Source: a virus. Taken from it: a stretch of DNA of 42,077 nt. Positions 5,002 to 28,071 of this stretch are shown here, in pieces (within the stretch, counting starts at the first letter, position 1; each line of letters begins with the position of its first letter). The notes beneath the pieces were generated by a model that had not been told where the DNA came from, did not search any database, and saw nothing but the letters and a program-made list of their open reading frames with translations. Location: the IMG/VR virus record IMGVR_UViG_3300025889_000246, positions 1 through 42,077 of that record. The stretch is one strand, 5' to 3'. Position numbers and translations under genes: made by a program.

Positions 5002-5658
5002 TTAAATAGATCTAGCTAAAGCTGATGAAGTAATGTCTATTGAGTCTTCTGATGGAGATTCTTGGGTTATATTGTTAAACAACTTATCATAAAACCCTTG
5101 CCCTGAAGCTATCGCTTTATCTATACTTAACAAATTTACAGATATAACTGTAGATCCCACCTTAAAGCGACCATATCCAACAGGCACCGGAACACCCTGT
5201 CTAGTATTGTTTTCTGCTTGTGCAAAAATATAAGAGCTAGTTGAAGCTGTATCAGGGTCATCTGGAGCCAACAACTTACTCATCAATAAGCTCATCCCAA
5301 TAGCAAAAGCAATATTGATGACTACGGCAGCAATAATAGCCCCAACACTTAATGTGCCAATTGATGTTGCAGTTGCGCTTAAAGCTATCATAAGAGTAAA
5401 CCCCACTGCCCCCATCAAAATAGGCAAAATAACTACTTCTTTATTTTTTACGTTGACTAAATTAAAGTTTTTTTCCTGTACGGCTACGCCATCAACAAAA
5501 ACGCTCATTGATCTTTTTTTATTTCTTGTTATGTAAGATTTAACTTTACCCGTATTAGCTTCTAGGGCAGAAAAGATCTCAGAGAGCTTACAGCAAGCAA
5601 ACTGGTGTGTTTTACCTACTATTTCCCCAAATCGACCATGAATACTAACCTTTGTCAT
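5002..5658 (-). CDS. Tail assembly protein I-like
   Basis: The product resembles lambda gpI, which assists assembly of the tail tip. The N-terminal part (about 85 residues) looks like the ubiquitin-fold segment of the family (VSIHGRFGEIVG near the start). It is followed by a long hydrophobic alanine/glycine segment (roughly residues 80-130), then the typical C-terminal phrase with QGVPVPVGYGRFKVGS. I chose ATG 5658, giving 218 residues. A GTG five codons upstream is also in frame, but it lies inside the AAAGTGTATAATATAAGG element that looks like a promoter, and the family normally starts at the TKVSIHGRFG strand. The gene sits between the K-like and J-like genes in lambda order. The role in assembly is inferred from the family. 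Confidence 0.85.
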   Translation of the reverse strand: MTKVSIHGRFGEIVGKTHQFACCKLSEIFSALEANTGKVKSYITRNKKRSMSVFVDGVAVQEKNFNLVNVKNKEVVILPILMGAVGFTLMIALSATATSIGTLSVGAIIAAVVINIAFAIGMSLLMSKLLAPDDPDTASTSSYIFAQAENNTRQGVPVPVGYGRFKVGSTVISVNLLSIDKAIASGQGFYDKLFNNITQESPSEDSIDITSSALARSI

Positions 5659-5680
5659 CCTTATATTATACACTTTTAAA
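5659..5680 (-). promoter_or_regulatory. Candidate phage promoter element before gpI
   Basis: The leftward strand reads AAAAGTGTATAATATAAGG directly before the ATG. TATAAT (5670 to 5665) ends 6 bases before the start codon. The same GTGTA(T)AATA core stands before several other genes in this window. A promoter here would sit at the end of the K-like gene and give an almost leaderless transcript. The AAGG next to the ATG is too close to be a normal Shine-Dalgarno site. Confidence 0.45.
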
Positions 5681-6074
5681 TGGAAAAATAAACTGACTTG
5701 AACGGATCTGCTCTAAAAAAACAAAAATTTTTATCTTGGACAGAATAGATAAGAGATGAGTGCTGATGATCATAAGCATACTCCACATCACAATCGCTTG
5801 GATCAGCAGATCCAAAAACATGAGAATGCCAAATAAAAAGCACGTTTTCTTTGCTTATAATATTAAAATATTTTCGAGAATCTATTTGAAAAAATAGATT
5901 TTTAATAGGATGTATATTCTCAAGAAAATAAAGATTCTTTGAGGTTGCTATTCCACAGCACTCAAAATCATATTCGCAGCAATAATTTTTTATTTGACTA
6001 CAAAAACCATCAAAATCTATAAGATTCAATAGAGGGAAACCCTCCGAAAGATAATCCTTTTGTATATTCTCCAT
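5676..6074 (-). CDS. Tail assembly protein K-like, JAMM/MPN metallopeptidase domain
   Basis: The 132-residue protein carries a complete JAMM motif: H83-x-H85, seven residues, S93, two residues, D96, with an upstream glutamate in ECCG (E38). In JAMM isopeptidases these residues bind zinc and polarise the water. Lambda gpK has an N-terminal JAMM-type domain and a C-terminal NlpC/P60 domain. Here only the JAMM part exists, with no NlpC/P60 cysteine-histidine segment. The gene overlaps the end of the L-like gene by 65 bases and precedes the I-like gene, matching L-K-I order. The ATG at 6074 is the only Met before the domain. An in-frame TTG at codon 16, preceded by GGAGGG, is a possible alternative start. 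The substrate is unknown. Confidence 0.85.
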   Translation of the reverse strand: MENIQKDYLSEGFPLLNLIDFDGFCSQIKNYCCEYDFECCGIATSKNLYFLENIHPIKNLFFQIDSRKYFNIISKENVLFIWHSHVFGSADPSDCDVEYAYDHQHSSLIYSVQDKNFCFFRADPFKSVYFSI

Positions 6075-7035
6075 AGTGTTTGAATCTTATTTTGCACCCG
6101 TTGAGAGTTTTAGAGCATTGATCTGCTACCCAATATTCTTTTTCATAACGAGGGTCTTTTGCTGTAGAGCCATTATCTTTTATACAAACATAGAAAAAAT
6201 TACATTGATCATCTGTATTTTCCAGTGTGTCACTTAAACCTATTTTGCTTAATATTTTTACAGCTGGCCTCATTATAACCACATCACCTTTAACATAATT
6301 GGTTATAGTTTTATCGTAATCGCCACGAAATTGGATACTTGTTAAATTATAACCATTTTTTTCAAAAAGTAATTTATCCTTATCATCTGCCAAAGGTATA
6401 CCTAAATTACCGTTATTTCCAAAAATAGTTGCAGCTGTTTGCAAACCCAAAATTTTTTGTTCATCAAAATCTGTCAATTGGCCATATCTGCAACCCGCGC
6501 CCCGATATTTCCAAGGGCAATAATTAGCAATCATAACCCTAGCTGGAAGTTTTGCCCCCTCATACTCAAGAGGAGAAATAAGCTCAAATTCAACATAAAA
6601 CTTATTTTCTTGACTTTTTTTATTCACAATAAACTGATCATCAGAAAAACGAGCCTCAGGGTCCGGTATTGCGAAAGGATTAAAATTATTAGGGAAATTT
6701 GCTGCATCAATATATTTCAAAAAAGTTCTTTTTCTGATAAATAAATGACCTACTAAATCTTGTCTTCTTTTTAGTATATCACTCATCAAACCATCTAGAT
6801 TGGCAACTGTTAGCGTTGGACGAGGCATTCGACCATCACCTTTCTTTTCAAACCCATTAGCATCAACAGGTAACGAATAATAGGTTTTACCATCAAAAAT
6901 AAGATTAGAAGCCGAAACTATACCGGGATGAAACCTAAAAAGACCATCTTGTTCGCCTAAATCTAGTTCGTATAATTCTATGATAGTATCTGGCAATAAA
7001 TCTAATAAAGATGCATTAAATGATTGAGTTGACAT
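6010..7035 (-). CDS. Minor tail protein L-like, with inserted carbohydrate-binding-like segment
   Basis: This 341-residue protein matches the gpL family. It has a C173-PWKYRGAG-C182 block and a C-terminal C307-SKTLNG-C314 block followed by FGGFPS. In lambda gpL the equivalent cysteines ligate an iron-sulfur cluster, and these four are well placed to do the same. Between the two blocks (about residues 190-302) lies an insert not expected in gpL. Within it, residues 236-302 read YVKGDVV, then FFYVCIKDNG, then EYWV, a pattern like the CBM5/12 carbohydrate-binding fold. The insert has two further cysteines (C278, C284). The protein should sit at the tail tip between the tape-measure end and J. 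The ATG is preceded only by A-rich sequence. Confidence 0.85.
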   Translation of the reverse strand: MSTQSFNASLLDLLPDTIIELYELDLGEQDGLFRFHPGIVSASNLIFDGKTYYSLPVDANGFEKKGDGRMPRPTLTVANLDGLMSDILKRRQDLVGHLFIRKRTFLKYIDAANFPNNFNPFAIPDPEARFSDDQFIVNKKSQENKFYVEFELISPLEYEGAKLPARVMIANYCPWKYRGAGCRYGQLTDFDEQKILGLQTAATIFGNNGNLGIPLADDKDKLLFEKNGYNLTSIQFRGDYDKTITNYVKGDVVIMRPAVKILSKIGLSDTLENTDDQCNFFYVCIKDNGSTAKDPRYEKEYWVADQCSKTLNGCKIRFKHYGEYTKGLSFGGFPSIESYRF

Positions 7036-7050
7036 GATTTATTTTTTATT

Positions 7051-10000
7051 TTATGATGTTAGCTTAAAGTAACCTGCGAATCCCGTTTCATCTTCCACTT
7101 TATTATTAGAAGTTGTAGTATCAATATCCTCTGTAGTTATTATATTTATATTCATCATAGCTCTTTGTCTAAGATACAAATAAACGGCATTCCTTTCTTC
7201 ATTTTTTAACTGTTTATTATAAATAATAATATCTGATACACTAAAACTTGATGTTCCATTATTTGCGCCAATTATTGGATTTATATCAAATTTGAAAGAT
7301 TCTTGATTTGATAATTCTTTGGCTCCCTTGCTTATATTATTTATAAAGCTTTTATAAACTAATTTTCTTCCATCTTTTGATGCAGCAACATTATAAACAA
7401 AAGCATATGATGGCATTAATTCATCTGCATTTTCAGAAGTACTAGTTTCCACAGAGTAATTATTTCCTCTATTCGGCATACCGGTGGATTCTTTAATCTC
7501 GCTACTCGCGTTATATAAATAACTGACATTATTATTACTATTAAACTTAGTAAAACTCAGATTCTGGCTGCGGATTTTTTTATTATCCGCATTAAATTGC
7601 CTTTTGGAGCCAAATGAATCTGGAAAAACTAAATAAAATATATCAAATGCTTCGGTATTATTAGTTAAAGTATAATCTGTTGAATTGTTATAAATTCCAT
7701 TTATAACTGCAGAAGCTAAATTGTCAAATTGTATACATGGCTTTCCATTGAAGCGGGATACTGCATTGTCACTAGCAGCGACATTGTAAAATTTTGGTTT
7801 ATTAGTAGCATCACCAACAATCTGAACAGCAACAGCAGAAAGCGCAGAATTTTTCGCAGCAGCTACCCACGTTTCCACATCTTGCCCATTTGTGGCATCA
7901 GTTGTTCCGGTGTTATAAACCGTTGTGCTAGCATCCCATCTCGCTATAAAATTACCGATATTTTCAGGTTGAAAATCTGAATTAGGAAAAAACAATGCAC
8001 CAATTAAGTTACTTGTTGTGTATGCGCTACTAGCTGATTTAACAGCAAATCCTCCTCGACCTCCTAATTTCCCTACTTCGTCATTACTTGTGCTACTAAT
8101 TACCGTAAATAAACCATCATCAAAAGAGCTGTCTGGTGCCCTATCTCCATATTGACCAAAAGCACCTCCTGCACCCCCCTGCGAAATTTGATAATTTAAG
8201 TTGAATGACCTGCCAGCTCCAGCTCTTTGTGTATTACCTTTATTTGTTTCGTTCCATGCTGTTTTCTGGTAAGTGTTTATGCCCTGTTGATAAGTTGAGC
8301 CGGGATCAGACTTAAATGATCCTTGCCCACCACCACCAAATCCAGCAGTTTGGATTCCAGCAAAATCACTAAAATCAAATTCTGCGAGCAAAGAATTTTT
8401 TCCACCAGCATTAATATCAAGTATTATTTTATTTTCAGATTTTGTCAAATAAACTGGTGTATTTAGATCAATGTCCCTGTCTTGCTTTGCTTGTCTAACC
8501 TGAGAAGCAGCTCTAGCCGCAAAAAGCCTATCCCCACCTCCACCTCCACCTCCTCCAGCATAAATACTAAAAATGCTTGGTAAATATATTCTAAAATTAT
8601 TTATACCGCTAGCTATCTCAATAGCATTCCCCCCTACACCACCGTCTGTACTTTTTCCGTATTGCGCTGGTTGAATATCAAAACTAATACCGCCACCAGA
8701 AGAAGGAGAGTCGGTCCATACTACTTTAGCTATTCCAGCATTACCCCCTACACCACCAAGGCCAATTATTTTAGCATTGTTTTTTAAATACAGATTCATC
8801 TGTAACTCCGAACCTAAACTAGGACCAACATTAACCACTGCCCCTGTTTTTATAGCTGGGGCTGGAATTTTCGGACTATTACTAAGTAATTGTTCATATT
8901 TACTAGAACCAATAGTGCTATTTTCATCAATAATAAAATGAACACCAGTGTAATAATCTAAGAAATTTGATTTACTTATATTTCTTTTGTTGATTTCTGT
9001 TTCAAATCTGTCTTTTAAAATTACATTTGACTCACCATCTTGTAAATATATTTCCAGTGCGCCTTTTTCAGCAGTTGACAATTTTATTGTGGGATCAGGA
9101 TTATCTCCGGGCTCTAAATTAGTAGACCCGGAAACTAAACCTGTTAAAACATCATTACTAACACTTTGAGAAAATGAGTCTACACCACTACAATAAACCC
9201 AGTCAGAATAAGAAATTAAAGTGCTAGTGTTTGAACTGTCATAATGCTCTCCTCTTATTCTGTAGTAGTAATCTGTGCTTGCTGTTAAATTAGTATCAGA
9301 ATATGTATTATAACCATCAATTCCCGTAGGAGTACCATAGTAAAAAGAATTTAAATACGTTCCACCCACAGCAGGAGGCAATGTTGTTGGGCGATCTATT
9401 TTTGGTATTTCTATCGTTGTTAATGCGCTCCAATTTTGAGTAGCATCAGTAGATCTTTCTATTTTGTATTTTTCAAAATAATAACCCGTCGGAGGATTGA
9501 CCCATCTTAGATCATGATAATAAACACCAAAATCATCTTTTTGTCCGGTTATTCCTAAAAATTTCTGAGGATGAGCTGGAGTTAATTCTGATGTACTACC
9601 AAAATGACCTGTTACATATCCTGTTAAATTGACCCGTATAACGCCTAATTCAGGTTGACCAGCATAATAAGTACGATCTTGAGTTCCATCTATTTCTGAT
9701 ATAAAACTCAAATTTATTGCTGTGTTATAAGAACCAGTTCCTGCTGGACCAGTAATTGGGGATTGAGGACCTGATGTAGACTTTAAGCCATAAAAATCAA
9801 AAGGAATGAATTTAGTAGATCCAGCTAATATAGTTACTCTTCTATCATCATTCACATCATAAGTTCCACTTATAAAATCATAAGTTTGATCAAAGTTATG
9901 GGCAGAGCTATCCAGCTCTAATGTCATTCTTACAGATGTTGTTCCGCTATTTGTTAAATAAAAACCCGTGCGTATTGCAAAACCTGTTTGCACAGCAAAC

Positions 10001-10068
10001 TCCATCCCAGTTACTCCAATGTAACCGGTGCCTTCTGCTCTTTGTGTGACTGCTGTAGGTATACTCAT
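7051..10068 (-). CDS. Large tail adhesin: FN3-like, glycine-rich and LamG-like lectin domains
   Basis: The 1005-residue product has a modular layout. Residues about 170-295 look like a fibronectin-III domain with unusual YY-rich turns. Residues about 430-675 are extremely glycine-rich (a run of eight Gly near 505-512, plus GGGGQG and GGAGGAFG), as in phage adhesins built on polyglycine helices. Residues about 700-985 resemble a LamG/concanavalin-type lectin, with FIARWDAST at the start, KPCIQFDN in the middle and DIIIYNKQLKNEERNAVYLYL at the end. The family pattern suggests binding of cell-surface glycans. The gene overlaps the upstream gpM-like gene by 4 bases (ATGA) and lies just before gpL, a position where lambda has no fibre. 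The receptor is unknown. Confidence 0.7.
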   Translation of the reverse strand: MSIPTAVTQRAEGTGYIGVTGMEFAVQTGFAIRTGFYLTNSGTTSVRMTLELDSSAHNFDQTYDFISGTYDVNDDRRVTILAGSTKFIPFDFYGLKSTSGPQSPITGPAGTGSYNTAINLSFISEIDGTQDRTYYAGQPELGVIRVNLTGYVTGHFGSTSELTPAHPQKFLGITGQKDDFGVYYHDLRWVNPPTGYYFEKYKIERSTDATQNWSALTTIEIPKIDRPTTLPPAVGGTYLNSFYYGTPTGIDGYNTYSDTNLTASTDYYYRIRGEHYDSSNTSTLISYSDWVYCSGVDSFSQSVSNDVLTGLVSGSTNLEPGDNPDPTIKLSTAEKGALEIYLQDGESNVILKDRFETEINKRNISKSNFLDYYTGVHFIIDENSTIGSSKYEQLLSNSPKIPAPAIKTGAVVNVGPSLGSELQMNLYLKNNAKIIGLGGVGGNAGIAKVVWTDSPSSGGGISFDIQPAQYGKSTDGGVGGNAIEIASGINNFRIYLPSIFSIYAGGGGGGGGDRLFAARAASQVRQAKQDRDIDLNTPVYLTKSENKIILDINAGGKNSLLAEFDFSDFAGIQTAGFGGGGQGSFKSDPGSTYQQGINTYQKTAWNETNKGNTQRAGAGRSFNLNYQISQGGAGGAFGQYGDRAPDSSFDDGLFTVISSTSNDEVGKLGGRGGFAVKSASSAYTTSNLIGALFFPNSDFQPENIGNFIARWDASTTVYNTGTTDATNGQDVETWVAAAKNSALSAVAVQIVGDATNKPKFYNVAASDNAVSRFNGKPCIQFDNLASAVINGIYNNSTDYTLTNNTEAFDIFYLVFPDSFGSKRQFNADNKKIRSQNLSFTKFNSNNNVSYLYNASSEIKESTGMPNRGNNYSVETSTSENADELMPSYAFVYNVAASKDGRKLVYKSFINNISKGAKELSNQESFKFDINPIIGANNGTSSFSVSDIIIYNKQLKNEERNAVYLYLRQRAMMNINIITTEDIDTTTSNNKVEDETGFAGYFKLTS

Positions 10069-11249
10069 GATAAGAAAGGATCAATTGTAATTAAATTTAA
10101 AAAATCTACTTCATAAGAAGTATAATCTATAGGCTGTTGTTTAAACTTTACTGATATATCATTATTATCTTTGAATTTTAAAGTGTGAGTCCATGATGTA
10201 CATAAAAACGCTTTTGTTTTATTGTATGGAGCTGGAGGAGTAAATAAAAATTGATCATAACCTCTGTGCTTCTCTAAAAAATGTAGAATAGCTTTAGCTT
10301 CTTTGTCTGACCTGCTTGTGAATGTTATATCTAAATTCAATAAAGATTTATTTAATCCATCTTCTACTCTTACTAAATAATCATTTTGAAAATTTTGCTT
10401 GTAAAATCTTGGCGCTTCATTAAAAGATATGCCTTTATTTATTGGCCAATAAAATTGTTTTTTAGTCCATAGTGTATTGTTACCTATTGGGCCATTGTCA
10501 TTTGTCGCTGTAGTTTCTGCATCTCCTGTGTAATAATACCATCCAGAAGTTGCTATTGTGAAATTAGTTCCGCTGCCATACACAATATCATCTTTTGAGT
10601 ATGTGTTTCCTGCGGCCCAAAATCCACTCGTATTACTAAATGGAATATAAAAATCTTTCCAGTCTGTTGTGGATCTATCTTCATTATGCAATGCTAAGCC
10701 AATATTATTAACATCAGGATATTCTAAAGAGTTATCAAATGTTTCTACAAAAAATTCTAACTCTTGATTGTATGGCTCAAATGGAGTCCAGTATATACCT
10801 GTGTAACCACCACTTGGCTTAGCCCCCTTATTAAATGAGTCTTCAAGTAAATGAATAACAGCTTTAGCTTCTTTATCTGATCTTTTACTGAGAGGTATAT
10901 TAAATTTTGCTTTTATTGCATTTTCAGACTTATTTAAATGGTTGAAATACCCATCTCCATAGTTGATATCATAGTAATGATTTTTAAACTCAACAGAAGC
11001 TCCATAAGATACTTCGTTAAAAAACTTATTTGTCCACGGGCTATTATCACCGGTAGGAGTATTGTGTATTGTTGAAGATGCCGCTGCACCAGTATAATAA
11101 TAGTGTCCTGATACATTTTGTGCAGCAGGATATTCTGTGCTACCAGTTGTGTAGCCACTATAATATACAATATCAAATTTAGAATAAGAATTTCCAAGCT
11201 CAAAAGCTGATACGTTAGCTATATTTGTTTCTCCAGAATTTAAAATCAT
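10065..11249 (-). CDS. Minor tail protein M-like, internally duplicated with CBM5/12-like modules
   Basis: The 394-residue protein consists of two homologous halves, about residues 17-190 and 210-372. Each half begins with a short YSKFDIVYYSG or YSKDDIVYGSG segment, then YYYTG and PWT or LWT, which resembles a CBM5/12 chitin-binding fold. A gpM-like domain follows. Its signature in copy A is INYGDGYFNHL with SKRSDKEAKAVIHLLE; in copy B it is TSRSDKEAKAILHFLE with FLFTPPAPYNKTKAF. Lambda gpM is a single domain of about 110 residues. The gene overlaps both neighbours by 4 bases and lies between a tube-like gene and the adhesin. The duplication is visible directly. Sugar binding is an inference from the fold pattern. 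Confidence 0.7.
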   Translation of the reverse strand: MILNSGETNIANVSAFELGNSYSKFDIVYYSGYTTGSTEYPAAQNVSGHYYYTGAAASSTIHNTPTGDNSPWTNKFFNEVSYGASVEFKNHYYDINYGDGYFNHLNKSENAIKAKFNIPLSKRSDKEAKAVIHLLEDSFNKGAKPSGGYTGIYWTPFEPYNQELEFFVETFDNSLEYPDVNNIGLALHNEDRSTTDWKDFYIPFSNTSGFWAAGNTYSKDDIVYGSGTNFTIATSGWYYYTGDAETTATNDNGPIGNNTLWTKKQFYWPINKGISFNEAPRFYKQNFQNDYLVRVEDGLNKSLLNLDITFTSRSDKEAKAILHFLEKHRGYDQFLFTPPAPYNKTKAFLCTSWTHTLKFKDNNDISVKFKQQPIDYTSYEVDFLNLITIDPFLS

Positions 11250-12061
11250 ACAGCAGCCTTACCTGTTAAATATTCTTGCGAAACAGAAAGAGAACCTTCC
11301 ATAAACCCGTTAGCTGCTGCAGACAAATCATTTTGATAAATTTGACCTGTGCAACCAAATTCTGTCAATGGCGACTCTCCATACACATCATAAATTTTAA
11401 TTACGACTCCCGCATTAGTACCAGTAAAAGATATTGCATTTCCAAAATCTTCGCCTTTTACAGACATATTGATAATAACATTTTCTTTTGTCACCCTGTA
11501 AGGAACCTCATTGCCAATTGTTACTACAGGATTTCTATCTGCTTTTACAGAATAATCAAAAGACATCTGTTTGTTTATACCAATATCATCTCCAGCTAAA
11601 AACGATCTTAAACCATGACCAATTGGAACTTCTTCTTGAATAGAACTGTAAGATTCAAAGTCTGAATCTGATCTACCATTGTCATTTAAAGACCCTAAAG
11701 ATCCGTACAAATCTATTTCTGATTGAAATAAAATAGGTTGAAATGGAGCCACAGAAAAACTCAAAGATCTAACAAATCCGCTTTCAAAACTAAGACCTGC
11801 AAAAGATCCATTAAAAGCTTCTCCGGTATGTTCTATAGCTGTCAAAGGATTTAAAAAATCATGAAAATCACCTGTACAATAATGAGAAAAACTTAATGTA
11901 CCTTTTGTTGGCCCTTGTGGCGCATAACGAATAACAGAACCCGTCACATCTGTAACTGGCTCTAAAGAAGCGCTAAAAGATAAAGTAGCATTCTCAGCAA
12001 AAATACTGGTGTTTGCTATCTTAAGTAACGCTTTTTCGTATTTTATAAATTTTGTTGCCAT
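11246..12061 (-). CDS. Tail-tube-like protein (paralog 3)
   Basis: The 271-residue protein shares a layout with the genes at 13648-14580 and 24923-26302. Residues 27-75 read LSFSASLEP, then APQGPTKGTLSFSHY, then HDFLNPLT, matching the same block in the 310-residue paralog (LSMSYSVAR, EPPQGEISFTRNY, DPLLDLTG). Residues 94-121 (FESGFVRSLSFSVAP and onward to DLYG) match the shared GF-x-T-x-YS-x-x-A-VGS block. It therefore probably adopts the tail-tube beta-sandwich fold and may form a distal tail ring. It is coupled to its neighbours by a 1-base overlap upstream and a 4-base overlap downstream. It could instead be a distal-tail adaptor of similar fold. Confidence 0.55.
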   Translation of the reverse strand: MATKFIKYEKALLKIANTSIFAENATLSFSASLEPVTDVTGSVIRYAPQGPTKGTLSFSHYCTGDFHDFLNPLTAIEHTGEAFNGSFAGLSFESGFVRSLSFSVAPFQPILFQSEIDLYGSLGSLNDNGRSDSDFESYSSIQEEVPIGHGLRSFLAGDDIGINKQMSFDYSVKADRNPVVTIGNEVPYRVTKENVIINMSVKGEDFGNAISFTGTNAGVVIKIYDVYGESPLTEFGCTGQIYQNDLSAAANGFMEGSLSVSQEYLTGKAAV

Positions 12062-13647: not shown

Positions 13648-14580
13648 TTAAATAAAGTTTTTAAATTGTAAATCGATTGCTAATAACCCATCAACAGATG
13701 TAGTTATACTTTCTGACACTAAATTGCCAGACGCTGGTATGTTTCCATCATAAGCCGTGATTCCCCTGCCGTCATCTTGTATAATTGCATTATTATGATC
13801 TCTAATAAACTCAGAATCATGATCTAAAAGTCCATCTAATGTGCCTTCTTCTATCGGGCACCTTATATTTACACTCAAAGATTTATATACACCACTTCTA
13901 ACATTATCTATCATGTTAGCTGTATAATAATCATCTATTTCTATTGTAAAATTGGTTGATAACTCTACAGGTGTTTGAGTTATAACCTGTGTTGGCGCAT
14001 AATAGTTTTGACTTGTTTTTTCTCTTAAATCATAAACAGGTGTTCTTGTTATATTATATTCTTGACTAAACTTAGTAATTCTATTACTATCGCTTTGATC
14101 AACCGATAAAATTATATTATCTTGATTCAGAAAGCATAAATTTGGCAATTCATAGATACCTGAGTAGTCTAACTCTCCACCTCTAACGCCGCTACCTAAT
14201 TGCCCAAATACAACAAAAGTACATCGAACTTGAGGTATAGAGCCCACATCTGCAGAAATAGAATAATTTGTTAAATAACCAGATGTGAACCCTATTACCT
14301 GTCCTGCACTTTCATTCAAATCGCTTGCATATATCAAAGATCCATCTACACCATAATCACCTGTCAAATCCAATAAAGGGTCATTATAAATATAATTTCT
14401 AGTAAAAGATATTTCTCCTTGCGGTGGTTCAGCTAAAATAGGCTGTATATGACCACCACCAAGAACGTTAATAGGGCGACGAGCTACACTGTAGCTCATA
14501 CTAAGATCTGTAATACCTGAGATCCCTGTACCGCCAACATAAAAAATATGCTCGTAACTTGGTGATGCGTTATATGCCAT
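13648..14580 (-). CDS. Tail-tube-like protein (paralog 2)
   Basis: This 310-residue protein follows the tape measure gene with one base between stop and ATG. Residues 97-127 (SGYLTNYSISADVGSIP, ending in TFVVFGQ) match residues 188-216 of the rightward major tail tube protein (NGFITDYSVEAAVGSLP, ending in VEAFN). The N-terminal half also aligns with the 271-residue paralog at 11246-12061. The C-terminal half repeats a beta-rich pattern with EIDDYYTANMIDNVR and LSVNIRCP. I read it as a second tube-type protein, perhaps a distal tail protein or tube-tip ring. Lambda has no such gene directly after the tape measure gene, so the role is inferred from the fold and position only. Confidence 0.6.
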   Translation of the reverse strand: MAYNASPSYEHIFYVGGTGISGITDLSMSYSVARRPINVLGGGHIQPILAEPPQGEISFTRNYIYNDPLLDLTGDYGVDGSLIYASDLNESAGQVIGFTSGYLTNYSISADVGSIPQVRCTFVVFGQLGSGVRGGELDYSGIYELPNLCFLNQDNIILSVDQSDSNRITKFSQEYNITRTPVYDLREKTSQNYYAPTQVITQTPVELSTNFTIEIDDYYTANMIDNVRSGVYKSLSVNIRCPIEEGTLDGLLDHDSEFIRDHNNAIIQDDGRGITAYDGNIPASGNLVSESITTSVDGLLAIDLQFKNFI

Positions 14581-24922: not shown

Positions 24923-26302
24923 ATGGCAAGAAATAGAATAATTTATCAAAGTCAGGCTTTATTCATAGGCCCGAACTCAACAGGTTACCATTTGCAAAAG
25001 GCACCTGCTGGTACAAGCGACGCTAATACTGCAACTTGGTCTGGCGTAACAGGATTAACTCATGCTGGAGCTGAAGCAGATGCAATTACAAGATCATTGG
25101 TGCTTCCTTTGGAAAGAATACAATCAGCTAACTTTAATTTTTCAATTAACAGAATCGATGTTAATGAATTCGGTAAGTTGGCTCGTCTTGATTCTATTGT
25201 AACTGAAGCTCCAACTGTCGGATTAGATTTTAATTATTACCTTACAGATGGTGGCAACGAAAGAAAATTAGGTTTCAATATCCCAACTACTGGTGCAGCT
25301 AGAGCAAGCGCTAGTTCTTTCTATGACGCAGATGATTTAGCTATGTCTGGTTATAGCGCCTTGTCAGGTCAAATTGATGACACCCAAGGTAACAACTACT
25401 ACATTCTTCTTACTAAAGAAGGTGAAGATGTAGATGGAGATACAAAATCTTCTAGCGCAGATGATTTTGATGTTGTAGCTATTGGTAATGGATTTATTAC
25501 TGATTACTCTGTTGAAGCGGCTGTTGGTTCATTGCCTACTGCTTCTGTAACAGTTGAAGCTTTTAATATCAAGGTTGATAATACAATGTCTGGAGCTACC
25601 AACTACTTACCAGCTGTTGGTCTTGAAAGTGGTATTCAATATACAGGTCAAGCTGCTCCTACTTACAATTACACTATTCAGGGCAATGAAGCTCAAGGCA
25701 CTACCACTCTTGATACTGAAGGATCTTCAGCAATCAAGGCTTTAAGGCCCGGAGATTTAGTTCTTACAATTAGCAATGCTTCTACTTACCAAGGTCTTGC
25801 TACTTTGGATGGCGATGGAAAAGCTCATATACAAAGCTTCACTATCAGCACTCCTATGAGTAGAACAGTGCTACAAAGACTTGGAAATACCTTTGGATAT
25901 GCTAGAGTTATTGACTTACCATTAAACATGGAAGTTTCAATTTCTGCTGTTATGTCTGAACTCAAGAAGAGTAACATTTTCCATACTCTTTGTAATACCA
26001 CAACTCATAATTTCACTCTTGATCTTTATGGTTGTGATAGTGCTACTGGAACCAGAAGCTCAAGCAAATCTCTAAGATTTGAAGTCAAAGGAGCTCGCTT
26101 AGAAAGTGAAACTTTCTCTAGTGCAATTGGTGACAATCAAACTGTTGATATTACATTTAGTTGTCAAATTGGTGGCGCTAATGATCAAAATAACGGCTTA
26201 TTCATGGAAGGTACTTATCCTCTTTACAGATGCTTAAAGTACTTACCTCTTGGCGCAAACAAAGGAGTTGCAAGTTCTTACAACCCACACGAAATCGCCT
26301 AA
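24923..26302 (+). CDS. Major tail tube protein (paralog 1)
   Basis: The 459-residue protein is the best candidate for the major tube subunit. It is the last gene of the rightward island, is followed by a strong terminator, and has regular, more GC-rich codon use than its neighbours, as expected for an abundant virion protein. Residues 188-216 (NGFITDYSVEAAVGSLPT and onward) match the shared block of the two leftward tube-like genes. The C-terminal half (ARVIDLPLNMEVSISAVMSEL, then LRFEVKGARLESETFSSAIGDN) has the beta-sandwich pattern of tube proteins, and the protein could carry two fused tube domains. The promoter may be the element before 22955, or the AT-rich gap upstream. Confidence 0.7.
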   Translation: MARNRIIYQSQALFIGPNSTGYHLQKAPAGTSDANTATWSGVTGLTHAGAEADAITRSLVLPLERIQSANFNFSINRIDVNEFGKLARLDSIVTEAPTVGLDFNYYLTDGGNERKLGFNIPTTGAARASASSFYDADDLAMSGYSALSGQIDDTQGNNYYILLTKEGEDVDGDTKSSSADDFDVVAIGNGFITDYSVEAAVGSLPTASVTVEAFNIKVDNTMSGATNYLPAVGLESGIQYTGQAAPTYNYTIQGNEAQGTTTLDTEGSSAIKALRPGDLVLTISNASTYQGLATLDGDGKAHIQSFTISTPMSRTVLQRLGNTFGYARVIDLPLNMEVSISAVMSELKKSNIFHTLCNTTTHNFTLDLYGCDSATGTRSSSKSLRFEVKGARLESETFSSAIGDNQTVDITFSCQIGGANDQNNGLFMEGTYPLYRCLKYLPLGANKGVASSYNPHEIA

Positions 26303-26919: not shown

Positions 26920-28071
26920 TTACATAATCAAGCCAACTAAAGCTCTGTTGTCGAGGACCATACGGCCTTCTTCAAGAGATCCATAGTAACCGATTCTCTG
27001 CTGACGAGAGGAGAACTGATCGTCTGCGACTAAGTTGAACTCAGAGCCAGTGTCAGAATCAACAGCAATGGCGCGAACTAAGGCGTCACGGCTACGATCA
27101 AGACCAATGATGATTTCTTCTGAAGCACCATTAAAGGCACCAGCAGAACCACCAGTGTGACCAGCGTAAGAAGTTGAACCAGCAACAGTGTCAAACACAG
27201 TGTTGAAACGCTTGCCAACACCCATCTCAAGAACTTCCATAATGGAAACACCGTAGAACTCAGTTAATCCGCTCTGAGAGAAGATTTGAGCTCTAACGTT
27301 GTCAGTTAAAGCGATAGGGTTAGAAGAAGCCCCAACAGCAGAGCCATTAGGAGCAACAGTGTTAACAGGGTTGTAAGCTAACGCACGAATCTGCTCGACA
27401 ACTTCAGGAGAAACCAAGAGATCAGTGATTCCACGGCGAGCGCCAGTAGGAGTACCTCCAACAAAGGAAGCATTGATTCTCTTAGCTTTGGTGAACAATT
27501 TGTTTAAATCCTCTAAGAGGAATCTGTTCGCCTGTGCTGTACGGAAAACGTGACGATTGCTTTCGGCAGTTGTGCTTGTTCCAGTAGAAGCAGCAGCGGC
27601 AGCAGTAAAAAGAAGATTTGCGGATGTTCTTTCTTGCTTTAATAAGACTTCCTGTGCAACACGGGTGAAAGTCTTGCCAACAACATCTAAACGGGAACGA
27701 GAAGCATACTTGCGATCAAAAGAAACAGCTGAATCCAAGTGATAGGTGGTGAACTTCAACTCAGCAGCAGTAGGCTGCACATAGTTGGTAGGAAGACCAC
27801 CAGCCACGGACTGGCTGTAAACTTTGATATAATCCTCGTCAAAAATGTCATGATAAAGGTCCAAAGGAATGGAAGGATTGTCATCAGCGTTGAACTGAAG
27901 AGAAGTAAACAAGTTACTAATCGTAGGAGCATTGTTGATAACCTCTGCCAAAACAGGACCGATGAATTCGGCTAAGGCAACCTGTGCGGCGTAAGCAACA
28001 TCTCTGTTGCGTGAAGCCATAGCCTTAATCAATTCAACTTGTTCGTCGGTTCTTTTAAGAGTAATATTCAT
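26920..28071 (-). CDS. Major capsid protein
   Basis: The 383-residue protein follows the protease-scaffold and decoration genes and is closed by a strong terminator, the standard place for the major capsid protein. It starts MNITLKRTDEQVELIKAMAS and shows a helical N-terminal arm, then a mixed fold with DLYHDIFDEDYIKVYSQ, SFDRKYASRSRLDVVGKTF, LLVSPEVVEQIRALAYNP and YGVSIMEVLEMGVGKRFNT, compatible with an HK97-type coat protein. The coding sequence is clearly richer in G and C and uses more C- or G-ending codons than most genes here, as is common for the most abundant virion protein. It also has a real Shine-Dalgarno site, unlike most neighbours. Confidence 0.85.
   Translation of the reverse strand: MNITLKRTDEQVELIKAMASRNRDVAYAAQVALAEFIGPVLAEVINNAPTISNLFTSLQFNADDNPSIPLDLYHDIFDEDYIKVYSQSVAGGLPTNYVQPTAAELKFTTYHLDSAVSFDRKYASRSRLDVVGKTFTRVAQEVLLKQERTSANLLFTAAAAASTGTSTTAESNRHVFRTAQANRFLLEDLNKLFTKAKRINASFVGGTPTGARRGITDLLVSPEVVEQIRALAYNPVNTVAPNGSAVGASSNPIALTDNVRAQIFSQSGLTEFYGVSIMEVLEMGVGKRFNTVFDTVAGSTSYAGHTGGSAGAFNGASEEIIIGLDRSRDALVRAIAVDSDTGSEFNLVADDQFSSRQQRIGYYGSLEEGRMVLDNRALVGLIM

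Follow-up and report, generated by a model that had tools for sequence, protein, structure and literature searches.

A tandemly duplicated gpM-family distal tail protein with CBM5/12-fold modules from an uncultured phage, probably forming a three-chain ring

Tail gene region

The window analysed here comprises the complete 42,077-nt stretch of the IMG/VR virus record IMGVR_UViG_3300025889_000246. On the minus strand, a tail gene region could be recognised in the order tape measure, 310-aa tube-like protein, 527-aa protein, 271-aa tube-like protein, double gpM protein, 1005-aa fibre-like protein, gpL, gpK-like protein with a JAB domain, gpI-like protein and a 1047-aa protein that is named gpJ-like by its position. 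This layout corresponds to the lambda order H-M-L-K-I-J plus additions. The following genes and matches were annotated:

5002-5673: match to phrog_32
5676-6074, minus strand: gpK-like protein, Prok-JAB, 132 aa
6010-7035, minus strand: gpL-like hub protein (PF05100, E = 8.4e-47)
7051-10068, minus strand: putative fibre/adhesin, 1005 aa
10065-11249, minus strand: double gpM (distal tail) protein, 394 aa (ORF, PF05939, half-versus-half match, model)
11246-12061, minus strand: tail-tube-like protein p271, 271 aa, directly upstream of the double gpM gene
13648-14580: tube-like protein p310, 310 aa
14582-21046, minus strand: tape measure protein, 2154 aa (PhageMin_Tail, PF10145)
24923-26302: tube-like protein ttp459, 459 aa

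The double gpM gene overlaps both neighbouring genes by four bases; on the fibre side, its stop codon lies in an ATGA overlap. The coordinates of this ORF had been given exactly in the original prediction, which left the minus strand unstated. In the gpK-like protein the Pfam search detected the JAB domain only and no NlpC/P60 part, unlike in lambda gpK. Where the flank of a close relative extends far enough, a homologue of the 271-aa protein nearly always precedes gpM.

Internal duplication of the gpM protein

The 394-aa chain consists of two repeats of ~190 aa, each of which contains a module of ~60 aa followed by a gpM domain:

11016-11210, minus strand: N-terminal CBM5/12-like module, residues 14-78 (module profile E = 1.5e-22; model strands)
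10677-11015, minus strand: first gpM domain (N copy), residues 79-191 (PF05939 in two stretches; hhalign to the C copy, E = 9e-19)
10860-10880, minus strand: SDKEAKA helix start, copy 1, residues 124-130
10458-10631, minus strand: second CBM5/12-like module, residues 207-264, joining the two gpM domains (structure match)
10128-10457, minus strand: second gpM domain (C copy), residues 265-374 (PF05939 on the half, E = 2e-17; lambda gpM 8iyk)
10290-10310, minus strand: SDKEAKA helix start, copy 2, residues 314-320

A tandem duplication of gpM with a CBM5/12-like module before each domain had been proposed from the sequence, including the positions of the two SDKEAKA helices, which are found exactly as claimed. 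The duplication was verified by BLASTP, which aligned the N-terminal and the C-terminal half with 34% identity over 184 columns (E = 9e-26), and by profile-profile comparison (E = 5.6e-33), according to which the homology spans the whole length of the halves. The gpM domains also align when taken alone, as do the modules (E = 1.5e-19). The unrelated pairing of a module with a gpM domain gave E-values of 0.5-0.7 only.

PF05939 matched the whole protein in two stretches (E = 3.6e-20, 72.8 bits versus a curated cut-off of 39) and also 28 of 28 aligned relatives. Searched separately, the C-terminal half reached the E-value listed above and the N-terminal half just 0.027; the N copy is thus recognisable mainly via its similarity to the C copy. 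The conserved motifs differ between the copies, with DSFNKG..P.G.Y.G...TPF.PY in the N copy and HFLE.H.G...F.FTPPAPY in the C copy.

Predicted structure and comparison with known distal tail proteins

The protein was modelled as a single chain with AlphaFold2 using an alignment of 28 sequences (pLDDT 81.5, pTM 0.81); a poorer model from 11 sequences (pLDDT 51) was not used. In the predicted model, the C-terminal half matches lambda gpM (8iyk_E) with Z = 10.3 and 1.5 Å over 109 residues (Foldseek E = 1.9e-7), and in a profile search of solved chains lambda gpM was the sole significant relative by sequence. The likeness to lambda gpM (PF05939, PDB 8iyk) comprises sequence family, fold, the gene position between tape measure and gpL and, for the encoded protein, a putative ring position beneath the tail tube. 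Lambda gpM differs as a single 109-aa domain, correctly described beforehand as single and without such a module, which is not fused to other parts and of which six chains in two conformers build a three-fold ring (PMC10721106). A gpM fusion in a cultured phage is the tail protein of Moraxella phage Mcat7 (KR093631), a 765-aa chain with gpM at its N-terminus, although with a single gpM and without a module.

When both gpM domains are considered at once, the model matches the baseplate protein gp49 of JBD30 (8rk3_D: Z = 13.1, 233 residues, 3.2 Å) and the Chi tail-tip protein (8vjh_B: Z = 13.3, 236 residues, 3.7 Å), above all next matches (Z = 10.3 and below). The two predicted beta-sandwich, tube-like domains of the chain are arranged like adjacent ring positions of JBD30 and Chi. 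The identity in the structural alignment is 6% to the JBD30 and 10% to the Chi protein, so that the match is one of modelled fold and arrangement and does not demonstrate homology.

In JBD30 gp49 (PDB 8rk3) two side-by-side beta-sandwich domains per chain each have a small decorating domain. The protein is a known trimer that lowers the symmetry from six-fold to three-fold, the two sandwich domains per chain mimicking six. The tail fibres are attached via its N-terminal part; they are separate proteins, unlike in the fused relatives of the window protein. JBD30 gp49 further differs by the lack of a detectable sequence relation and by its OB-type decorations, which are inserted in each sandwich domain, whereas those of the window protein are of CBM5/12 type and precede each domain. 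The Chi tail-tip protein (8vjh chain B) has the same two-domain arrangement, but is 557 aa long and carries other extra domains. For Chi, a distal ring that bridges the six-fold tail and the three-fold tip was proposed (reported in PMC12724387).

CBM5/12-like modules

In the model, the N-terminal module has strands at residues 27-30, 32-35, 38-41 and 48-52 with pLDDT values of about 82-92. For the second module (residues 208-264 of the model), structure matches were obtained with the CBMs of the Vibrio chitin-oligosaccharide deacetylase (3wx7/4nz1: Z = 5.6-6.0, 2.0 Å over 47 residues, 23-26% identity) and with the Anabaena contractile-injection baseplate protein All3316 (7b5h: 1.5 Å, 29% identity), which was also found by sequence with the module profile (E = 0.007). 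The Z-scores of the CBM5/12 matches are modest and consistent across several entries. PF02839 did not match the modules of the window, and the best relative reached 17.5 bits versus a curated cut-off of 26.2; a single-copy relative gave a sub-threshold match to Pfam CBM_5_12 (E = 0.0042). Taken together, a CBM5/12 fold as proposed is moderately well supported for the modelled modules.

A related module was found inside the C-terminal part of gpL:

6109-6330, minus strand: module in gpL, residues 236-309 (profile comparison with the gpM modules)

It aligned to the gpM module profiles with a probability of 87.6% (E = 3.5e-6), compared to at most 0.4% for 12 column-shuffled controls.

Chitin binding by CBM5 domains uses a Y-W or W-W pair, and this aromatic pair is almost fully conserved, while the binding residue of CBM12 was named as Trp687 (PMC8449059 and its reference list). 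Among the modules of the family, a WW pair occurs in 1 of 146. Trp687 of the ChiA1 domain presumably lies two residues before the conserved Pro, and at this position none of 141 modules has a Trp. Invariant in the modules is a pattern of Tyr, Lys, Asp, Tyr-Tyr, Pro and Trp, of which the initial Tyr and the final Trp are placed like the aromatic pair of the fold core. Fold and core Tyr/Trp are thus common to the module, the CBM5/12 domains and All3316, but the canonical chitin-binding aromatics are missing in the module. For this reason, a structural or docking role is favoured over sugar binding, which is conceivable via other residues, and the up to two sugar-binding sites per chain that had been anticipated find no support.

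Working CBM5/12 domains, six of which would crown the tail tip and bind surface glycans, are regarded as unlikely. They would agree with the fold match, with the sub-threshold Pfam match in the single-copy relative and with the occurrence of sugar-binding-like domains on other distal tail proteins (OB in JBD30, galactose-binding-like in LSH1), yet the residues retained are those of the core rather than of binding, and the related module within gpL fits a structural part.

In one related locus (L019, 10001-11413), a domain of ~65 aa, GTVTQSGNTVTGVGTTW...TSATQMTVTVSQAV, is inserted in the first module of the double gpM. This domain also occurs in the fibre parts of L014, L016 and L017 and thus resembles a mobile domain.

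Relatives and evolutionary history

Relatives were collected by IMG/VR scans, the widest of which yielded 395 tblastn-confirmed relatives, of which 80 were kept; viral scans with a single query returned near copies only. The family is common and its members are uncultured phages, mostly from aquatic metagenomes. In total, 102 distinct gpM ORFs from IMG/VR loci were surveyed, a sample that is biased toward relatives of the double query and in which some ORFs end at contig ends, so that the counts are approximate. Two gpM domains are present in 84 ORFs, of which 56 have the order module-gpM-module-gpM, 19 gpM-module-gpM, eight no detected module and one three gpM matches. The remaining 18 ORFs have one gpM domain, a length of ~186-198 aa when complete, and a module or module-like N-terminus. 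The wider family includes phages with a single module-gpM, so that tails of this kind do not depend on the duplication.

In 50,697 phage records, tblastn detected single gpM stretches only: no double gpM was found and no record matched 80% of the protein. The search of 84,980 genomes for hosts or prophages with two queries revealed no relatives, and searches with the large terminase and the capsid protein no close cultured phage.

In the gpM-domain tree, one branch (support 100/97, recovered in 99% of bootstrap trees) separates all N copies from the remaining sequences, and the N-copy clade recurs in a second tree. The single-copy forms group with the lambda-like gpM of cultured phages (99/89). 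Few columns and long outgroup branches limit a finer reading of the tree; the common clade of the N copies means that the duplication happened once, before the double forms diversified.

Two further observations were made among the relatives. In L004 (4320-5501), the frame of a near-identical double gpM copy stops early although tblastn aligns it over the full length, which may be due to a frameshift, either real or a sequencing error. The major capsid protein of the window (26920-28071) has no relative in the phage collection and a 69% identical one in a 184-kb IMG/VR contig (L205 record) that has a double gpM; the window may therefore represent only part of a large phage genome.

Fibre-like gene and its fusion

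A C-terminal extension of more than 150 aa was found in 46 of the 84 double ORFs. Among the groups most closely related to the window, the extension is a homologue of the window's separate 1005-aa protein and thus represents an in-frame fusion. In L014, for example, residues 9-396 of the fibre-like protein match residues 429-827 of the fused chain (E = 2e-40) and residues 801-1002 its C-terminus (E = 3e-9). The fusion is expected if the ring carries the fibres, as in JBD30 and Sf11. The 1005-aa protein has no Pfam or PHROG match, and three relatives likewise lack a Pfam match; it is considered a candidate receptor-binding protein. It contains a glycine-rich segment (GGGGGGGG, LGGRGG).

Proposed organisation of the distal ring

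The gene product is proposed to be the distal tail (gpM/Dit) ring protein of a lambda-like siphophage tail tip, in which a single duplication of an ancestral one-domain gpM, together with fusion, gave rise to two copies, each preceded by a small module of CBM5/12 fold. From the comparison with JBD30 and Chi we infer that the ring of the virion probably consists, in the simplest reading, of three chains carrying six gpM domains and would be pseudo-hexameric. Each chain would set its two beta-sandwich domains side by side beneath the tail tube, while toward the gpL/gpJ hub the ring would be truly three-fold. Lambda obtains two gpM conformers from six identical chains; here, the two copies would have them built into the sequence. 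A trimer of the JBD30 type is considered the likeliest mechanism. Beside the ring domains, the modules may serve as structural linkers or as docking pads. The probable partner for docking is the neighbouring fibre, which in relatives is part of the same polypeptide. For this joint explanation, i.e., a once-duplicated gpM, a three-chain pseudo-hexameric distal ring and structural or docking modules, a probability of roughly 0.7 is estimated.

The original prediction that the duplication changes the stoichiometry of the ring is thus probably right for the chains, three instead of the six of lambda, yet the number of gpM domains most likely stays at six; two domains per distal tail protein chain are already known from JBD30 and Chi. 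The principle recurs in T5 pb6, whose two-domain chains assemble into trimeric tail rings, but pb6 belongs to another family and is a tube protein rather than a distal ring.

It is improbable that six chains are present as in lambda, with one gpM domain of each in the ring and the other directed outward as a decoration or fibre anchor. The existence of single-copy module-gpM relatives and the stronger divergence of the N copy would be in line with six chains, but the predicted arrangement fits adjacent ring domains of JBD30 and Chi, and a strong, separate conservation is kept in both copies. That the second copy arose recently or by accident, or reflects an assembly artefact, is next to impossible despite the seven exactly identical residues of SDKEAKA, as the double ORFs come from independent contigs and the copies are merely 34% identical and fall into separate clades; a DNA-level artefact as the source of the duplication is ruled out by the independent contigs and the tree.

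A two-domain trimeric distal ring is already known from JBD30 and Chi. New is its gpM-family version, reached by a visible duplication, with CBM-fold modules, with fibre fusion in relatives and widespread in uncultured phages. Proteins of the JBD30 and Chi type share this arrangement, but here they could not be linked by sequence to lambda gpM. The family described is a clear case in which the sequence itself reveals how a two-domain distal tail protein evolved. Single gpM, module-gpM, double forms with one or two modules and double forms fused to a fibre coexist in nature. Furthermore, the protein marks a large group of uncultured phages without a close cultured relative, and the proposal makes the simple prediction of three chains per ring. 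The odds are about even that one duplication froze the two quasi-equivalent conformers of gpM into one chain and that, in the approximately half of the members whose chain carries the fibre, ring, symmetry adaptor and three fibres would be one polypeptide, so that tip and fibres co-assemble with a fixed count of three.

Tube-like proteins and tape measure protein

The tube-like protein p310 is related by profile to p271 (E = 4e-7) and ttp459 (E = 1.7e-7); no solved relative of these paralogues was found. Two of the three come after the tape measure gene and may build additional rings above the distal one. A tail built as a whole on duplicated two-domain proteins found no support, as the N- and C-terminal halves of p310, p271 and ttp459 do not align with each other in profile comparisons (E = 0.01-0.3). 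The paralogues were rejected as an explanation of the gpM duplication, since the single-gpM locus L070 likewise has three ORFs of 276-302 aa that are matched by p271.

In the tape measure protein, two similar-looking segments were noticed at residues of about 680-760 and 860-935, which had no Pfam match and were not paired by BLASTP. Each of them ends with DLxKxxGxxxxxxxEVKGG, and the motif spacing resembles that of a PD-(D/E)XK nuclease.
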